DNA of 64,000 nt from Thiobacillus sp. (GTDB lineage: Bacteria; Pseudomonadota; Gammaproteobacteria; Burkholderiales; Thiobacillaceae): assembly GCF_030696885.1 (NCBI RefSeq), contig NZ_JAUYRI010000020.1:1-64000 (forward strand), given 5' to 3'. Of this stretch, positions 22,888 to 29,259 are shown one piece after another. The first letter of the stretch is position 1; each line of letters starts with the position of its first letter. The notes below the pieces were generated by a model, which was not told the origin of the DNA, did not search any database, and saw nothing but the letters and a program-made list of their open reading frames with translations. Both the position numbers and the translations under genes were made by a program.

Positions 22888-25173
22888 TTAAAACTGCACA
22901 TTCACCCCGGCGTAGAACGAGCGGCCGGGGCCGGGAACGGCGATTCCCCAGTGGACGCCGGTGATCGACATCGTCGTGCCCTGGCCGACATAGGCGCCGC
23001 CCAGCGGCAACGCGTAGCCGGTGTCGAACAGATTGTCGATGCCAAGGTCCAGACGGACCTGCTTCCATTCGTAGCTGCTGCGCAGACTGAACAGGCTATA
23101 GCCCGCAGTCTCGATTTCGTTGCGGATATCCGAGACGTCGTTCTTCGCTGCGACGAACCGCCCTTCCAGCGTGTTGGTCAGCCGCCCCCGCTTTTGCGTC
23201 AGCATCAGCTTCGCGTTCAAGGGCATGATGTTGTAGAGATTGTCGCCGGTATCGCGGTTCTCGCCGCGGGTGTAATTCACAATACCGCTGACGGTAAAGT
23301 CTCCGTAGGCGGCGCTGCGTGCCGCCAGGAAGTGGCCGGACAGATCGACGCCAAGCAGCCGGGCCGACTGGTTGACATACTTCAGCACGTTGAACTGGTC
23401 ATCCGGGCAGGAGGTGTTGTTGCAGGTCGCGTCGATGTAGTCCTTCACGTGCGTGTAGTACGGCGCGACGCGCACCCCCCAGGACTTCTTGCCGGCATCG
23501 TGCCAGTTGGCGGCGAAGCTCAGGGTTCGGGCCACCTCCGGCTTCAGATCGAGGTTGCCGACATAGCCATTGCCGTCGCCGACGAAGTTGTTCATCACCG
23601 CCGCCATGGTCCAGGTGGACCAGGTATAGCGCTCATACAGGTTGGGCGATCGGGACTTCTGTGCGACGCCGAGCTCGTAGGTTTGCGTCGCGGCCGGTTC
23701 ATAACGCGCCAGCGCGGTCAGGTCCCAGTTGCGGTCGGTTATGTCATGATCCTGGTTGTTGAAATTGGCACTGTCGACCAACTGGTTTCCCATGCACATG
23801 CCGCTGGTGCAGTACCCCATCACGTCGCCGGTATCCATCCTGACGGTCTCGTGGCGTACACCCACCAGGCTCGTCCACTGCGGATGGATCTTCGCTTCCC
23901 ATTCCCCGAACACGGCGTAGCGGTCGCGTTCACCATTGTTGATGTTCCAGAAGGTGCCAGGTCCCATGCCACCGCCAGACGCCGCCCACCAGTCATCCAG
24001 GCGATAGGCCTGGAACTCGGTGCCGACGCGCAGGGTGTCGCGTGCGGAAAGCGGTACCTCAGCGTTGACCGATGCCCCGGTGGTTTTGCCTTCCGTATAC
24101 ATGGGCATGCCGGCTGCACAGGTTCCGAGCGGGTCTCCATGAAAACGAATCGGCGAACACGGCGCGCCGGCGCCCGAGTTGGAGCCGTACCAGAACCGCT
24201 TGTCATCGCCGAAGTCCATTTCATGCTCGGTCTTCTCATGGTAGATGCGCGCTTTCAGCGTGCCCCATTGATATTCACCCGTGTAGCCCAGATTGACCAG
24301 ATTGCTTGTGTTGTCGGTCATGTCCATGCGCTGGTTCGGAAAATTCTCGTTGGGAATATTCTGATGCGCCAGCTTCAGGTCGAACACATGCTTGTCATTG
24401 CGCAAGGCAAAACCGAGGGCATGGTTGATCGATTTGTAGGCGGTGGAACCGACTTCGTCGAGCGGCAGCGTGTGGCCGATGCGGCCGGTCGCGGTCGTCG
24501 TCTTGAAGTTGTCGCCCGCCGTGTAGTTGTCGGACTGCGCGGTCGAGCCGGCATAGCTCACGCTCAGGTTCTCGCCGGCAAGCGTCGCCGACAGGTTGGC
24601 ACCCATGGCATTGCCGTTGCTGCGGTAGAAGGTGCCGAATTCGCCCTTTGTCATTGAGCTCTGGCCCGACTTGGCAAATTCCGGTGCGGCCGATTCGACC
24701 AGGATGGTGCCGCCGATGCTGTCGCCGCCGACGCTGACGGGCGTGATGCCGGCGTAGACCGTGATGCGGTCGACCCGGGTGGGATCGATATAGGAAAGCG
24801 CCGGATTCATGTGGTTGGGGCAGGCCGCGATCAGGTCCATCCCGTCCACCTTGATGCGCAGCCGGTCGTCTGCCAGCCCACGGATCGACGGCAGGCTGGA
24901 CACGCCGCCGGCGCCGTAGAAGCTGAGGCCGGGAACGTCCCTCAGCAGCGTGGCCGTGTCGCTGGTGGCGGCGCGCATCAGGAGAAGATCCGCTGCTTCC
25001 AGCGTCACGCTGTTGAGATCGACGTCCGTGGGTTGTGAACCCACGACGACCACGGGCATGAGGGGGGTATCCGATGACTGGGCTGGCGATGCGCCTTGCG
25101 CAACTGCGTTGTTGCTTAGTGCCGACAGGGCAAGGGATACCGCGAGGAAGACCGGCTTTTTGGGAAACAACAT
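22888..25173 (-). CDS. TonB-dependent copper receptor, OprC/NosA-like
   Basis: An outer-membrane TonB-gated transporter of 761 residues: signal peptide (1-25), TonB-box-like start, plug domain (about 45-165), 22-strand barrel and a C-terminal aromatic (QF). The plug holds C118-P-N-H121-M122-N-P-A-L-S-Y-I-D-P, which is characteristic of the OprC/NosA copper receptor group, where this Cys/Met region binds copper. Met/Cys-rich loops (GGGMGPG; MGYCTSGMCMG) add further soft-metal ligands. It is divergent from the PCuAC chaperone gene (220 bp apart) and close to the HvfABC operon, which supports a copper role. Confidence 0.88.
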   Translation of the reverse strand: MLFPKKPVFLAVSLALSALSNNAVAQGASPAQSSDTPLMPVVVVGSQPTDVDLNSVTLEAADLLLMRAATSDTATLLRDVPGLSFYGAGGVSSLPSIRGLADDRLRIKVDGMDLIAACPNHMNPALSYIDPTRVDRITVYAGITPVSVGGDSIGGTILVESAAPEFAKSGQSSMTKGEFGTFYRSNGNAMGANLSATLAGENLSVSYAGSTAQSDNYTAGDNFKTTTATGRIGHTLPLDEVGSTAYKSINHALGFALRNDKHVFDLKLAHQNIPNENFPNQRMDMTDNTSNLVNLGYTGEYQWGTLKARIYHEKTEHEMDFGDDKRFWYGSNSGAGAPCSPIRFHGDPLGTCAAGMPMYTEGKTTGASVNAEVPLSARDTLRVGTEFQAYRLDDWWAASGGGMGPGTFWNINNGERDRYAVFGEWEAKIHPQWTSLVGVRHETVRMDTGDVMGYCTSGMCMGNQLVDSANFNNQDHDITDRNWDLTALARYEPAATQTYELGVAQKSRSPNLYERYTWSTWTMAAVMNNFVGDGNGYVGNLDLKPEVARTLSFAANWHDAGKKSWGVRVAPYYTHVKDYIDATCNNTSCPDDQFNVLKYVNQSARLLGVDLSGHFLAARSAAYGDFTVSGIVNYTRGENRDTGDNLYNIMPLNAKLMLTQKRGRLTNTLEGRFVAAKNDVSDIRNEIETAGYSLFSLRSSYEWKQVRLDLGIDNLFDTGYALPLGGAYVGQGTTMSITGVHWGIAVPGPGRSFYAGVNVQF

Positions 25174-25393
25174 GTTTTTCTCTGAATTGTTGGAATTTTC
25201 CCGAGTCTAGGGACGTCAAGCGCGTGCGAGAATGTGGCAAATTGCCGCAAGCCTTGCCGGACGGCGCGCTGCGACGATTTGACGCATCGCATTCCGCGCC
25301 ATAATCCCCTATCGTTGCAGGCGATCAGAACGTAGCGCCGTGCGTGGCCGTGTCGCGCTGCGGGCGCAGTCTTCCGTAAAAAATGGAGCAAAG

Positions 25394-25852
25394 ATGAAAC
25401 TGAATGTGTGGATGTTTTCCGTCATCGCCGCGCTGGCCGCGCAATCGGCGTGGGCCGCCAACGTCAGCGTGAGCGACGCATGGGCGCGCGCGACCATGCC
25501 GGGCCAGAAGGTCAGTGGCGCCTACATGCGGATTCAGTCGGATGTCGATGCGAAGCTGATTGGCGCATCCAGCCCGGCGGTGCCGCGGGTCGAGGTGCAC
25601 GAAATGAAAATGGACGGCGACATCATGCGCATGCGGGAGGTCACCGCGATCGAGCTGCCGAAAGGCCAGGCCGTTGCACTCGAGCCCGGCGGCTATCACA
25701 TCATGCTGATGAATCTGCCAAAGCCGATTGCGGCCGGCGATCTGATTCCGCTTAGCTTGACGATCGAGTCAGGCGGCAAGCGGCAGACGGTCGAGGTAAA
25801 GGCCGAGGCACGCGCGCCCAATCAGCCCATGCAGCACCATCATCATCACTGA
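25394..25852 (+). CDS. Periplasmic copper chaperone PCu(A)C
   Basis: A 152-residue secreted copper(I) chaperone that delivers copper to cytochrome oxidase CuA or CuB sites. Signal peptide 1-21 (ends AWA). The metal motif is exact: H69-x10-M80-x21-H102-x-M104. The protein ends in five consecutive histidines (148-152), an added metal-binding tail also seen in some relatives. The ATG at 25394 has a GGAG ribosome binding site eight bases upstream. It is divergent from the copper receptor and convergent, with 11 bases between stops, with the hvf operon. Confidence 0.93.
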   Translation: MKLNVWMFSVIAALAAQSAWAANVSVSDAWARATMPGQKVSGAYMRIQSDVDAKLIGASSPAVPRVEVHEMKMDGDIMRMREVTAIELPKGQAVALEPGGYHIMLMNLPKPIAAGDLIPLSLTIESGGKRQTVEVKAEARAPNQPMQHHHHH

Positions 25853-25863
25853 GCGACGCGGTC

Positions 25864-26628
25864 TCAAGCCGGACGCACCGCGCCCAGGATCGCACCGCGC
25901 GCGCGCAAGTCGTCGAGCAGGGCGCCGCCGGCCTGCAGGATAAGCCCCGGATCGGGATGGCGGCTTTCGGCCGCGATCTGTTCCAGCGCGGCGCGACCGG
26001 TCAGCGTGCCCGGTTCCAGTAGCGTTAGCAGGCGCGCGGTAAAAGCGTTGATCTCGCTGAACTGAACGGTGTCCCCGGCGTCGCGAAACACCAGCAGATG
26101 GGTTTCTGCCGGCTGCACCTTGCGGCGCGGCGCGATGCGATGCACTGGCCAGTCGTAGCGCAGATTGGCCAGTACCGGATTCAACAACGGCACGCCGTCA
26201 AGCAGGTCGCCCGCCGGGTCGAACGCGCGGTCTGCGCTGCGGGTCGACACCGACTGCACCAGCTCGATCCATTCGTAATGCGCCAGCGCCAGCAGATAGG
26301 GCGGCATGTCCTCGGGCGCGGTCCATTCGTTCTGCAGGAACTGGATGAACTCGTCCGGAATCTGGCGAAAGTAGGGCGTATGGCTGCGATGGGTGCTGAA
26401 AAATGCGCGCACCAGCCGCGCCCATTTGCGTGCTCCCAGAACCTGCCGCAGCACCGGAAAACAGCTCAGCAAAAAGCCCTCGATGTTGTTGTACAACAGG
26501 CCGTTGTAGATGTTCATCCGCCGCGCTTCGACGCCGGCCGGGCGCGGGTGCGCCTTCGGGTCGCGGATGTGCGCGGTGAAGGCGAACTGGTAACGCTGGA
26601 ATTCAGGAGGCGCGGACGTTGTGTTCAT
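25864..26628 (-). CDS. hvfC: HvfC-like DUF2063 protein, partner of the MNIO enzyme
   Basis: A 254-residue DUF2063 protein, sometimes labelled putative DNA-binding. In characterised MNIO systems the DUF2063-type partner binds the precursor peptide and presents it to the oxidase. The N-terminal helical domain has the family sequence [13 protein letters not shown] (about 36-48), then [15 protein letters not shown]; a C-terminal winged-helix-like part follows. The start at 26628 lies 26 bases inside the 3' end of hvfB, so the two proteins are probably made together. It is the last gene of the operon. Confidence 0.85.
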
Positions 26629-27454
26629 GGCGTGTGAATGCGGCCTGGATGCGCGCGATGTGCTCGACCTCGCGGGTGAGCTCGTCCAGCGGCGGAATGT
26701 TGAAGTCGCGCTCCAGCAGCGTCGGCGCAACGCCGTGGATGCGGTAGGTCTGGTCGAGCAGCGCCCACACCGGATCGATCACGTCGGCGCCGTGGGTGTC
26801 GACCAGCAGGTCCGGGGCCTCGACGTAATGCCCGGCCACGTGCAGGTAGACGATGCGCTCGCTCGGCAGCGCGCGGATGAAATCGAGCGGATCGTAGCGG
26901 TGGTTGACGCTGTTGACGTAGACGTTGTTGACGTCCAGATGCAGGTCGCAGCGGGCTTCGTCGAGCACGGCGCGAATGAAGGCGAGCTCGTCCATTTCGG
27001 CAATCGGCGCGGCCGTGTAGTACGACGCGTTTTCGATCGCGATGCGGCGATCGAGAATGTCCTGCGCGCGGCGGATGCGGCGAGCGACGTGTTTCACCGC
27101 CTCTTCCGTGAAGGGAATCGGTAGCAGATCGTACAGATGCCCGTCGTCCGAGCAGTACGACAGATGTTCGGTATAGAGCTGGATGCCGTGGGCATCCATG
27201 AATTGCCGCGTCTTCTTCAGCAGCATTTCGTCGAGTGGCGCAGGGCCGCCGAGCGACAGCGACAAACCGTGGCAGACGAAGGGATAGCGCTCGGTAAAGC
27301 CGCGCAGGTCGCGGCCATAGGCGCCGCCCATGTCGATCCAGTTTTCCGGAGCGATCTCGAAAAAATCGATGGCGTCGGGAACCCGGGTTTTCAGCGCAGG
27401 TATGAGTTCGCGCCGAAACCCGAGCCCCGCGCCGGACAGGCGCAGGGGGGTCAT
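26603..27454 (-). CDS. hvfB: HvfB-like multinuclear non-heme iron oxidase (DUF692, MNIO)
   Basis: A 283-residue DUF692 enzyme of the MbnB/TglH/HvfB superfamily, a TIM-barrel oxidase with two or three iron ions that remodels cysteine residues of ribosomal peptides. Typical motifs are [10 protein letters not shown] (30-39), [35 protein letters not shown] and LLERDFNIP, which supply the His/Glu/Asp/Asn iron ligands. It directly follows the EGKCG-repeat gene (12 bases), the arrangement of HvfAB in Haemophilus, where EGKCG cysteines become copper-binding oxazolone/thioamide pairs. The same chemistry is inferred here. Confidence 0.9.
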
Positions 27455-27466
27455 CAGACTGGCAGC

Positions 27467-27817
27467 TTACTGCGCGGCCTCCGGCGCGGCGGCCGGCTTC
27501 TTGGTCGCGCCGCACTTGCCTTCACCGCACTTGCCGTCTTTCATCTTGGCCTTGTTGCCGCATTTGCCTTCACCGCACTTGCCATCCTTCATTTTGGCGG
27601 CGCCACCGCATTTGCCGTCCATGGGCTTGGCGCCGGCCTTGGCGCCACATTTGCCTTCGGCCGGCTTGGCTGCACCGTGGTTGTCGGCGACCTGGTAGCC
27701 CGAGGACAGACCAGTCAGGGCGAAAGGATTTTCAGCGGCCGCGGCGATGGGGGCGGCGGCCATGCTGGCGACGAAAGCGGAGCCCACAGCGGTGGCGATC
27801 AGGGTTTTCTTGGACAT
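27467..27817 (-). CDS. hvfA: HvfA-like secreted EGKCG-repeat peptide (RiPP precursor)
   Basis: A 116-residue peptide with a signal sequence (1-28, AxA at the end) and a low-complexity Lys/Gly/Ala core. Six pentapeptides of the form (E/D)-G-K-C-G place cysteines at 57, 70, 81, 86, 97 and 102; two 13-residue units K-M-K-D-G-K-C-G-E-G-K-C-G are identical. This matches the precursors (HvfA, bufferin-like) whose EGKCG cysteines are modified by DUF692/DUF2063 pairs to bind copper. A GGAGAG ribosome binding site precedes the ATG. Expected to be exported and to sequester copper in the periplasm. Confidence 0.9.
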   Translation of the reverse strand: MSKKTLIATAVGSAFVASMAAAPIAAAAENPFALTGLSSGYQVADNHGAAKPAEGKCGAKAGAKPMDGKCGGAAKMKDGKCGEGKCGNKAKMKDGKCGEGKCGATKKPAAAPEAAQ

Positions 27818-27887
27818 GGTATTTCTCTCCTAACAAAATTTAACGAGGGACCAAATTACCGGACGATTCCGGATTGTTGCAAAAGGC

Positions 27888-28145
27888 TCACGAGCCGAGC
27901 TTTTTCTGCAATTCGCTTGCGATGCGCTGCCGGGCTTCGGGTGTCAGCCCGTTAGCATCATCGTTGGCCGCAGCTTCTTCACGAAACAGACGGCGCATTT
28001 CCTGCAGTTGCTGGCTGAATCGGGCGCAGTTCTTGCAGATCGCAAGGTGTAGTCGCAAGGCCATGCGATTGGAAAGCGGCAGCCGTTGGTCCATGGCGCG
28101 CGAGGCAAGTTCGGTTGCTTCCCTGCATGTCGCCATCCAATTCAT
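27888..28145 (-). CDS. Zinc-finger anti-sigma factor
   Basis: A small 85-residue protein with the zinc-binding anti-sigma signature H33-x3-C37-x2-C40 (HLAICKNC), preceded by Cys7-type residues, and no membrane segment. Soluble ZAS-type anti-sigma factors of this kind often sense redox or metals by losing zinc. Its start overlaps the sigma factor stop by 4 bases, so it surely pairs with it. It lies 70 bases upstream of hvfA on the same strand and is the obvious candidate for sensing copper or thiol stress. Confidence 0.85.
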   Translation of the reverse strand: MNWMATCREATELASRAMDQRLPLSNRMALRLHLAICKNCARFSQQLQEMRRLFREEAAANDDANGLTPEARQRIASELQKKLGS

Positions 28146-28708
28146 ACGGCACCCACTTTCGAAAACCCGTTCAACTCAAGGCATTGACGCATGAACAATC
28201 GTGCGCGATGCAGCAGTACCCAGCAGTTCGTCGGCGTGATATTCAATTCCTTACAGATTTCTTCGGTTTCCATGCCGGCCACCTCGCGCAGGCTGAACAC
28301 CTGGGCCATGACCGGCTTCAGGCGGTCGGCGCAGTCGTCGAGCACGCGCCGCAACTGGCCCAGTTCCGCCTCTGCGTGCGGATTGCCCCAGGGGCGCAGC
28401 GGCTCGGCCCAGTGGCCGTCCTGCACGAACAGCAGGTCGATCGCCTCTTCACCGTCCTCGTCGCGCGGGATTTCCACCTCGCGCACATTGCGGCGGATCA
28501 GGTCGACGATCTTGTGCTTGAGGATGCCGGTGAGCCAGGTGCGCGGGCTGGCGTCGCCAGCGTAGCGGGCCTGCGCCGACAGCGCCGCCAGCAGGGTTTC
28601 CTGGACCGCGTCCTCGGCCAGTTCGTCCGAATGCAGCTGGCGGCGCGCCACACGGAACAGATAATCGCCGTGATCGGTCAGCCAGGTGTGCGCGTCGAGC
28701 GTGTTCAT
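28142..28708 (-). CDS. ECF-type RNA polymerase sigma factor
   Basis: A 188-residue extracytoplasmic-function sigma factor with region 2 (LFRVARRQLHSDELAEDAVQETLL, and TWLTGILKHKIVDLIRR) and region 4 (LREVAGMETEEICKELNITPTNCWVLLHRAR). I chose the ATG at 28708, which has an AAGGA ribosome binding site seven bases upstream, over an in-frame start 36 codons earlier. It heads a sigma, anti-sigma, hvfA, hvfB, hvfC operon. It is divergent from hsp20, with a GCAGTT/AACTGC palindrome between them. Confidence 0.92.
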   Translation of the reverse strand: MNTLDAHTWLTDHGDYLFRVARRQLHSDELAEDAVQETLLAALSAQARYAGDASPRTWLTGILKHKIVDLIRRNVREVEIPRDEDGEEAIDLLFVQDGHWAEPLRPWGNPHAEAELGQLRRVLDDCADRLKPVMAQVFSLREVAGMETEEICKELNITPTNCWVLLHRARLFMRQCLELNGFSKVGAV

Positions 28709-28745
28709 CGGGGGTCCTTTTTTTCGGCTTGCGGGCACTTTAGGG

Positions 28746-28769
28746 GCAGTTCGCAAAACCGACAACTGC
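28746..28769. promoter_or_regulatory. Inverted repeat between the sigma factor and hsp20 genes
   Basis: GCAGTT (28746-28751) and AACTGC (28764-28769) form a perfect 6-bp dyad with 12 bases between, in the 131-bp divergent region. It may be an operator for one or both genes; no regulator is identified. Confidence 0.35.
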
Positions 28770-28839
28770 GGCTCTTGAAATGCGCCGCGCACCCCCCAGA
28801 TCGGTTGCATCGACATTCGTCAACCTGAAGGAGGACATG

Positions 28840-29259
28840 ATGGCCCATATCACCTACGACCCGCGTGCAATGACTGACCCGCTGGACGCGCTGTTCCGGG
28901 GCTTCTTACACCCGGTCCGCATGGACACAGAAGTGCCGCAGATCCGCATGGACGTGAAGGAAAACGAGGGCGGCTATGCCGTCCACGCCGATATCCCGGG
29001 GGTCGACAAGGATGACATCCACGTCTCCATCGACGGCAACACGGTGGCAATCAGCGCCGAAGTGAAGAAGAGCACCGAGCAGAAGGATGGCGAGACCGTG
29101 CTGCGGCGCGAACGCGCTTTCGGCCGGGTCAGCCGCAGTTTCGCGCTGGAGCACGAGGTGGACGAGGCGTCCGCCACTGCCCGCTATCGCGACGGCGTGC
29201 TGGAGCTGGTGCTGCCGAAGAAGGCCGCTGCCGCGGCCAGGCGGCTGGCCGTGCAGTAA
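28840..29259 (+). CDS. Hsp20/alpha-crystallin small heat-shock protein
   Basis: An ATP-independent holdase of 139 residues. The alpha-crystallin domain spans about 35-130 with the conserved VDKDDIHVSIDGNTVAIS and the final strand GVLELVLPKK. The C-terminal I-x-I motif is not obvious. An AGGAGG ribosome binding site (28829-28834) sits 5 bases before the ATG at 28840 and only 2 bases before another ATG at 28837, so 28840 is preferred. Divergent from the ECF sigma gene and followed by a strong terminator. Confidence 0.93.
   Translation: MAHITYDPRAMTDPLDALFRGFLHPVRMDTEVPQIRMDVKENEGGYAVHADIPGVDKDDIHVSIDGNTVAISAEVKKSTEQKDGETVLRRERAFGRVSRSFALEHEVDEASATARYRDGVLELVLPKKAAAAARRLAVQ

Follow-up and report, generated by a model that had tools for sequence, protein, structure and literature searches.

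The window studied in this work is a stretch of 64,000 nucleotides from Thiobacillus sp. (contig NZ_JAUYRI010000020.1, positions 1 to 64,000), and the analysis is centred on an operon that encodes a peptide predicted to be modified together with an extracytoplasmic function (ECF) sigma factor, and on a predicted promoter that lies inside the sigma gene itself. Five minus-strand genes span exactly positions 25864-28708, with the composition proposed by the initial annotation (sigma, anti-sigma, hvfA, hvfB and hvfC), and all five were named over cut-off by curated models. The ECF sigma gene (28142..28708) belongs to the TIGR02943 family (185.3 bits, cut-off 162.2), and profile search also detected Sigma70_r2 (1.2e-14) and Sigma70_r4_2 (1.5e-11) in its product. 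It is the sole TIGR02943 match over the cut-off in the genome; two other, weaker sigma-like matches in it reach 64 and 42 bits against the same model. The sigma gene overlaps by 4 bp with the gene of a soluble zinc-binding anti-sigma (ZAS) factor (27888..28145; zf-HC2 8.3e-7; NF052368 68.4 bits, cut-off 50). This small protein of 85 amino acids contains the arrangement C7-x25-H33-x3-C37-x2-C40, which is the C-x25-H-x3-C-x2-C spacing found in soluble redox ZAS proteins.

The precursor gene hvfA (27467..27817, minus strand) encodes 116 amino acids with six (E/D)GKCG motifs, six cysteines and a signal-like N-terminal stretch that by eye looks like a Sec signal peptide. Its product matches NF050137 (45 bits, cut-off 19.5) and stays below the narrower HvfA equivalog NF050188 (30.4 bits, cut-off 95). 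The following gene, hvfB (26603..27454, minus strand), codes for a maturase of the multinuclear non-haem iron-dependent oxidative enzymes (MNIO; DUF692), whose closest solved structure is 3BWW (E 7.6e-81). It overlaps by 26 bp with hvfC (25864..26628, minus strand), which encodes the DUF2063/RRE partner protein (NF050145 280.1 bits, cut-off 142; closest solved structure 3DEE, E 3.2e-19). The class of HvfB was assigned by curated family cut-offs, and the placement of this protein with HvfB agrees with the first proposal: it scores 435.3 bits against NF003818 (cut-off 360) and 255 bits against the BufB equivalog NF050167, below the cut-off of 310 for the bufferin (BufB) type. Because of these scores, and because the genome holds one MNIO gene (PF05114) and one EGKCG gene (NF050137), the operon is an HvfABC cluster. 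With its EGKCG-repeat precursor, HvfB-type MNIO and HvfC-type DUF2063 partner, it is a new member of the known HvfABC/captophorin class, and most of the named assemblies nearest to it are from Thiobacillus and Hydrogenophilales (HvfB identity up to 91%). The oxazolone/thioamide chemistry that had been attributed to its product has been superseded: as reported by two groups, the modification of EGKCG peptides has been reassigned to 5-thiooxazole (PMC13419390; PMC13097082). This group is an isomer of oxazolone/thioamide, with O and S exchanged, and thus a loss of 4 Da reveals that a cysteine is modified and not the kind of modification.

Within the sigma coding sequence, at 28230..28255 of the minus strand and 84 bp upstream of the anti-sigma start, there is a predicted ECF-type promoter, TGTAAGG-N15-CGAC, which occupies codons 152-160 (Cys-Lys-Glu ... 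Pro-Thr) of region 4. This site was compared among 42 sigma genes, those scoring >120 among 44 matches, which include records titled Methylophilaceae, Rugosibacter and Sulfurisoma. The motif is exact in 38 of the 42. Regarding the exceptions, two genes have CGTC for CGAC (L060 and L076), one has neither half (L077) and the last is a paralogous sigma with Cys-Gln (L003), where the motif stands upstream of the gene. As this is the sole such case in 40 sigma upstream regions, the arrangement departs from that of Neisseria, in which the sigma-dependent promoter precedes the operon. Third codon positions at the site hardly vary. Cys152 is encoded by TGT in 41/42 genes (31/135 for the other Cys codons of the same genes), Lys153 by AAG in 40/40 (138/218 for other Lys codons), and codon 159 ends in G in 41/42. 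These codons, 152, 153 and 159, rank 4th, 1st and 2nd of 171 when ordered by the scarcity of synonymous change. Codon 154, which belongs to the motif in part, shows an observed/expected ratio of 0.32, whereas the spacer codons 155, 156 and 158 change synonymously at the expected rate (0.96-1.21). From this codon evidence, the internal site is under selection as DNA.

The motif was first recognised upstream of 16 genes for the DoxX-like partner HvfX that share TGTAAGG-N15-CGAC. The genome under study has three exact copies, located i) inside the sigma gene, ii) before hvfX and iii) 33 bp before msrP, the first gene of an msrPQ pair whose products are both over cut-off (MsrP 491 bits, MsrQ 181 bits). 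Across 56 genomes of the genus, 140 exact sites were found, 38 of them sigma-internal and spread over 37 genomes. These 37 genomes contain 97 further sites (2.6 each), whereas the 19 genomes without an internal site contain 5, four of which fall in a single incomplete genome (G072, 78% complete) in which no internal site was found and which was counted in this group. The reversed pattern, used as a control, is about equally frequent in both groups (2.9 per genome with the internal site vs 3.4 without).

The surroundings of 80 distinct sites of the 140 were examined, those omitted being mostly sigma-internal, hvfX sites that were examined separately, and some located in loci already covered. 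The genes behind these 80 sites are msrP (24), BufA2 bufferin (11), DUF1223 (10), secreted MsrAB (5), the anti-sigma gene preceded by a sigma-internal site (5), hvfX (4), a second sigma (3), DUF302 (3), an EGKCG gene (2), one unknown family (2) and anti-sigma (1); each family was checked on one example. Among the matches listed, the motif stands 29-41 bp upstream of the msrP start codons. Besides, msrP is over cut-off in 7/18 genomes without an internal site, and the motif precedes none of these seven genes. Single motif sites also precede a KatG-like gene (by eye) and a DsrE-family gene (L198 and L237). When spacers of 14-16 were allowed in the genome under study, 8 matches appeared, three of which are the sites reported above; among the others one is tRNA-like (by eye) and the rest showed no known target. 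A one-mismatch search of the same genome gave 37 further matches, and none of the 27 whose loci were compared by BLAST is followed by a gene related to a known target (the 10 without a locus were left out).

The initial annotation had noted that no DoxX-like gene is seen in the operon, which is correct. The DoxX-like partner, named HvfX in NCBIfam, is frequent in this class of cluster without being universal, and here hvfX is found on another contig of the genome (G000:C24:18981-19364; NF050144 140.7 bits, cut-off 80) behind the same promoter motif as in the operon. No GKCG motif was detected in the forward frames of 16 kb around this gene. In the same region (L115, G000:C24:11000-27000), the unlinked hvfX adjoins a SelO-like gene and has EgtD-like and SelD genes nearby, all of them assigned by eye. 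HvfX is over cut-off in 30/38 genomes with HvfC and in 2/18 without it (Fisher p 1.8e-6), HvfC being counted over cut-off only and G055 being left out. In the 30 hvfX loci examined, TGTAAGG is found within 120 bp of hvfX in 0/11 loci that contain an EGKCG gene and in 16 of the other 19, which contain none. Two loci (L003 and L116) show tandem modules in which sigma, anti-sigma, EGKCG gene and hvfX are followed by sigma, anti-sigma, hvfA and hvfB, and in two more (L241 and L010) hvfABC occurs without sigma, next to an anti-sigma-like stretch scoring 77 that is perhaps a remnant.

Several observations weigh against the scheme proposed below. First, the motif was derived from the same data, and its three copies in 3.0 Mb are not above chance (about 1.4 expected for 11 fixed bases; 5 for the reversed pattern), so the case rests on the positions of the sites and on their conservation. 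Second, 10/80 sites have no recognised target; of the 19 hvfX loci that lack an EGKCG gene, three lack the motif too (L124, L125 and L126); and hvfC is retained in at least three genomes that have no motif site at all (G060, G061 and G081). In two of these, G060 and G081, the hvf locus contains HvfB and HvfC and no sigma gene; some other control must exist there. Third, the sigma codons A127, E37 and Q36 are likewise constrained, the spacer codon 157 is moderately conserved (observed/expected 0.54), and the 9-codon windows 53-57 come close to the motif window (0.61 against 0.54; median 0.81), which means that the sigma gene has more than one constrained stretch. Finally, the -10 region of the motif is unlike the TCTAA of the meningococcal system.

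Other elements and neighbouring genes complete the locus. Upstream of the sigma gene (28736..28765, minus strand) there is a conserved sigma70-like box, TTGYCG-N17-TAAAGT, proposed here as a basal promoter, whose strict form occurs in 19/40 sigma upstream regions. This box was also considered as the promoter of the regulon and rejected, because its loose form appears once in the genome and it reads equally well as sigma70-type. Between the anti-sigma stop and hvfA (27859..27872, minus strand) lies a short G+C hairpin, CCGGA-ATCG-TCCGG. A stem of at least 5 bp is found in 19/26 relatives, and the hairpin is similarly placed in most of them with different stem letters and complementarity kept, although most single sequences are weakly above shuffles. 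An ECF promoter in this same interval was discarded, as the spacing of the candidate elements varies among relatives (by eye) and the hairpin explains the conservation better. On the plus strand, a gene for a PCu(A)C copper chaperone with a His-rich tail (25340-25852) is convergent with hvfC, their stops being 11 bp apart; a convergent pcuAC was observed in 23/40 named loci with sigma and in 2/40 without. After it comes the gene of a TonB-dependent receptor (22888-25173, minus strand), for which heme and copper receptor models remain below their cut-offs. On the other side of the operon, hsp20 (28837-29259, plus strand) is divergent from sigma and has at 28774-28801 a promoter that looks sigma32-like by eye (CTTGAAA-N13-CCCCAGAT). 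Hsp20 was rejected as a part of the system and taken as a neighbour, since it is divergent in 23/40 named loci with sigma but also in 7/40 without.

From this arrangement we infer the following scheme, from the binding of the sigma factor and the activity of the promoters to the direction of the feedback, the signal, the peptide chemistry and the binding of copper. The basal sigma70-like promoter would supply the sigma factor, which the cytoplasmic ZAS protein would hold until oxidation or attack by a metal disturbs its Cys/Zn site. Once freed, the sigma factor would read the TGTAAGG-N15-CGAC promoters. The internal one would direct the synthesis of the anti-sigma and HvfABC, giving negative feedback in which the level of sigma is not raised, and the other two copies of the genome would drive the distant hvfX and msrPQ. 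HvfB and HvfC would then convert the cysteines of HvfA to 5-thiooxazoles, and the exported peptide would bind Cu(I) in the periplasm, where MsrPQ would repair methionine sulfoxide. It is most likely that the peptide operon and the repair of methionine sulfoxide in the periplasm are driven by the sigma factor, together with its own inhibitor. We are reasonably confident, on the basis of comparative genomics, that this is a stress-sigma module whose response to sulfur and copper damage includes the making of a periplasmic thiooxazole peptide. With somewhat less assurance, it is considered probable that in this sigma family the target promoter is embedded in the codons of the DNA-reading domain, where the letters coding for the residues Cys-Lys-Glu also spell the element TGTAAGGA and are thus selected twice, that the sigma factor activates its inhibitor and the thiooxazole-peptide operon and not itself, and that one compact regulon across Thiobacillus joins HvfA and BufA2, as two classes of copper-binding RiPP precursor, with HvfX and with MsrPQ and secreted MsrAB, as two systems of methionine-sulfoxide repair; the odds of this second proposal were set slightly lower because of the three hvfX loci without the motif and the other constrained stretches of sigma. 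As for the signal, for which copper had been proposed, copper itself is no likelier than oxidative or thiol stress, because the Cys and His residues of the anti-sigma are spaced as in soluble redox ZAS proteins and methionine-sulfoxide reductases form the largest class of predicted targets.

The alternative that survives best, and that we nevertheless hold to be improbable, is a single copper-induced transcript started before sigma, with the usual positive autoregulation, an internal site without a role and no DoxX partner. The 4-bp overlap between sigma and anti-sigma, the conserved box before sigma and the adjoining PCu(A)C gene are consistent with such a transcript, and so is the response to copper or gold reported for related clusters (Cupriavidus gig, PMC10304878; Legionella GIG, PMC5413113). 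However, the motif lies inside and not before sigma in 38/42 genes, its synonymous sites are constrained, and HvfX is both present in the genome and associated with HvfC (30/38 vs 2/18). Still harder to sustain is an internal site that is bound by the sigma factor without being productive, so that it pauses or blocks the polymerase or titrates sigma. Intragenic promoter-like sequences are reported to act in this way (PMC10771440), and the internal site is conserved, its promoter activity being predicted; yet the same motif and spacing occur in a promoter-like position before the msrP starts, and the anti-sigma gene and hvfABC stand directly downstream of the internal site. That one of the two weaker sigma-like matches reads the motif, with an indirect link to the operon's sigma gene, is hardly credible, since both are far under the cut-off of 162.2 and the motif is carried by the operon's sigma gene itself, upstream of the cognate anti-sigma, and follows that gene across the 56 genomes.

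Compared with the systems already described, the new part of the module read here from DNA is its predicted wiring: a promoter within the sigma gene, and copper-binding peptides placed in the same regulon as the repair of methionine sulfoxide. In a limited search of the literature, neither the present regulon nor a sigma promoter located within the gene of that same sigma was found reported; related data may be present in the tables of PMC12452194 and PMC13097082. Under the predicted regulon, a single sigma factor would govern the EGKCG peptides together with HvfX and the repair of methionine sulfoxide, which bears on the physiological signal and purpose of the peptides and on the role of HvfX; if this is true, the HvfA and BufA2 peptides would belong to the repair of sulfur oxidation as much as to copper storage. 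Likewise, a selected promoter inside its own sigma coding sequence would be an unusual wiring, in which feedback acts via the inhibitor and sigma does not amplify itself.

The sigma-E/MseR operon of Neisseria (NMB2140-2145) also combines an ECF sigma, a ZAS anti-sigma with C-x25-H-x3-C-x2-C and a DUF2063 gene, to which it adds a DoxX-like gene in the same operon (PMC2893595). The C/H spacing of the anti-sigma described here is the one quoted for MseR and RsrA, and the sigma/ZAS/Msr logic predicted here would be shared too, msrAB being a further target of the Neisseria sigma (PMC2893595, PMC3240639). We infer that the remaining genes of that operon are hvfA, hvfB and hvfC, in this order. The product of the gonococcal cluster has been reported as gonophorin, with thiooxazoles (PMC13097082). 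The Neisseria operon differs in that sigma and anti-sigma are numbered at the other end, with the DoxX-like gene inside, and in its promoter, described upstream of the operon with a -10 TCTAA; the -35 GTAAGGTT of that promoter, on the other hand, resembles the motif found here (PMC2893595). According to the same source, the oxidants tried in meningococcus did not raise sigma-E, and MseR was unresponsive.

Other EGKCG systems, namely oxazolin (Haemophilus hvf), fontiphorin (fon) and bulbicupramide (mmr), have in common with the present one the EGKCG precursor, the MNIO and the DUF2063 partner; the portions of those reports used here do not mention a sigma/anti-sigma pair, and HvfX is inside the Haemophilus operon (PMC13419390). 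In a survey of MNIO clusters, sigma with NrsF is reported for Buf1 clusters, and EGKCG clusters are described as core genes plus DoxX, a few of them accompanied by PF00174 or ferric-reductase genes, in line with MsrPQ (PMC12452194). The gigPABT genes of Cupriavidus, with rpoQ-rsqA (PMC10304878), and the GIG genes of Legionella (PMC5413113) share MNIO, DUF2063 and DoxX-like genes and are induced by copper and gold, with the sigma gene adjoining in Cupriavidus. They differ in the precursor, of the DUF2282 type or otherwise non-EGKCG, and in that gig is divergent from rpoQ, regulation by RpoQ being putative.

An ECF sigma directing msrPQ or an MNIO operon is also known from the ECF16/NrsF systems, that is, Brucella BcrS-AbcS with bcrXQP (PMC8315932) and Caulobacter SigF with bufferin operons (PMC3511200). 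Their promoters, TGTAAC-N17-CGAA for ECF16 (PMC8315932) and GTAACC-N16-CGAA for Caulobacter SigF (PMC3511200), resemble TGTAAGG-N15-CGAC, whereas the membrane NrsF anti-sigma (Brucella), the own promoter upstream of sigma and the methionine-rich or Buf1 peptide set these systems apart. Finally, the sigV promoter of Caulobacter lies inside the cabp coding sequence (PMC13171946) and is, like the one proposed here, an intragenic promoter serving an ECF-type regulatory unit; its host gene is a neighbour of the sigma gene that the promoter drives, whereas the promoter predicted in Thiobacillus lies inside the sigma gene, before the gene of its inhibitor.

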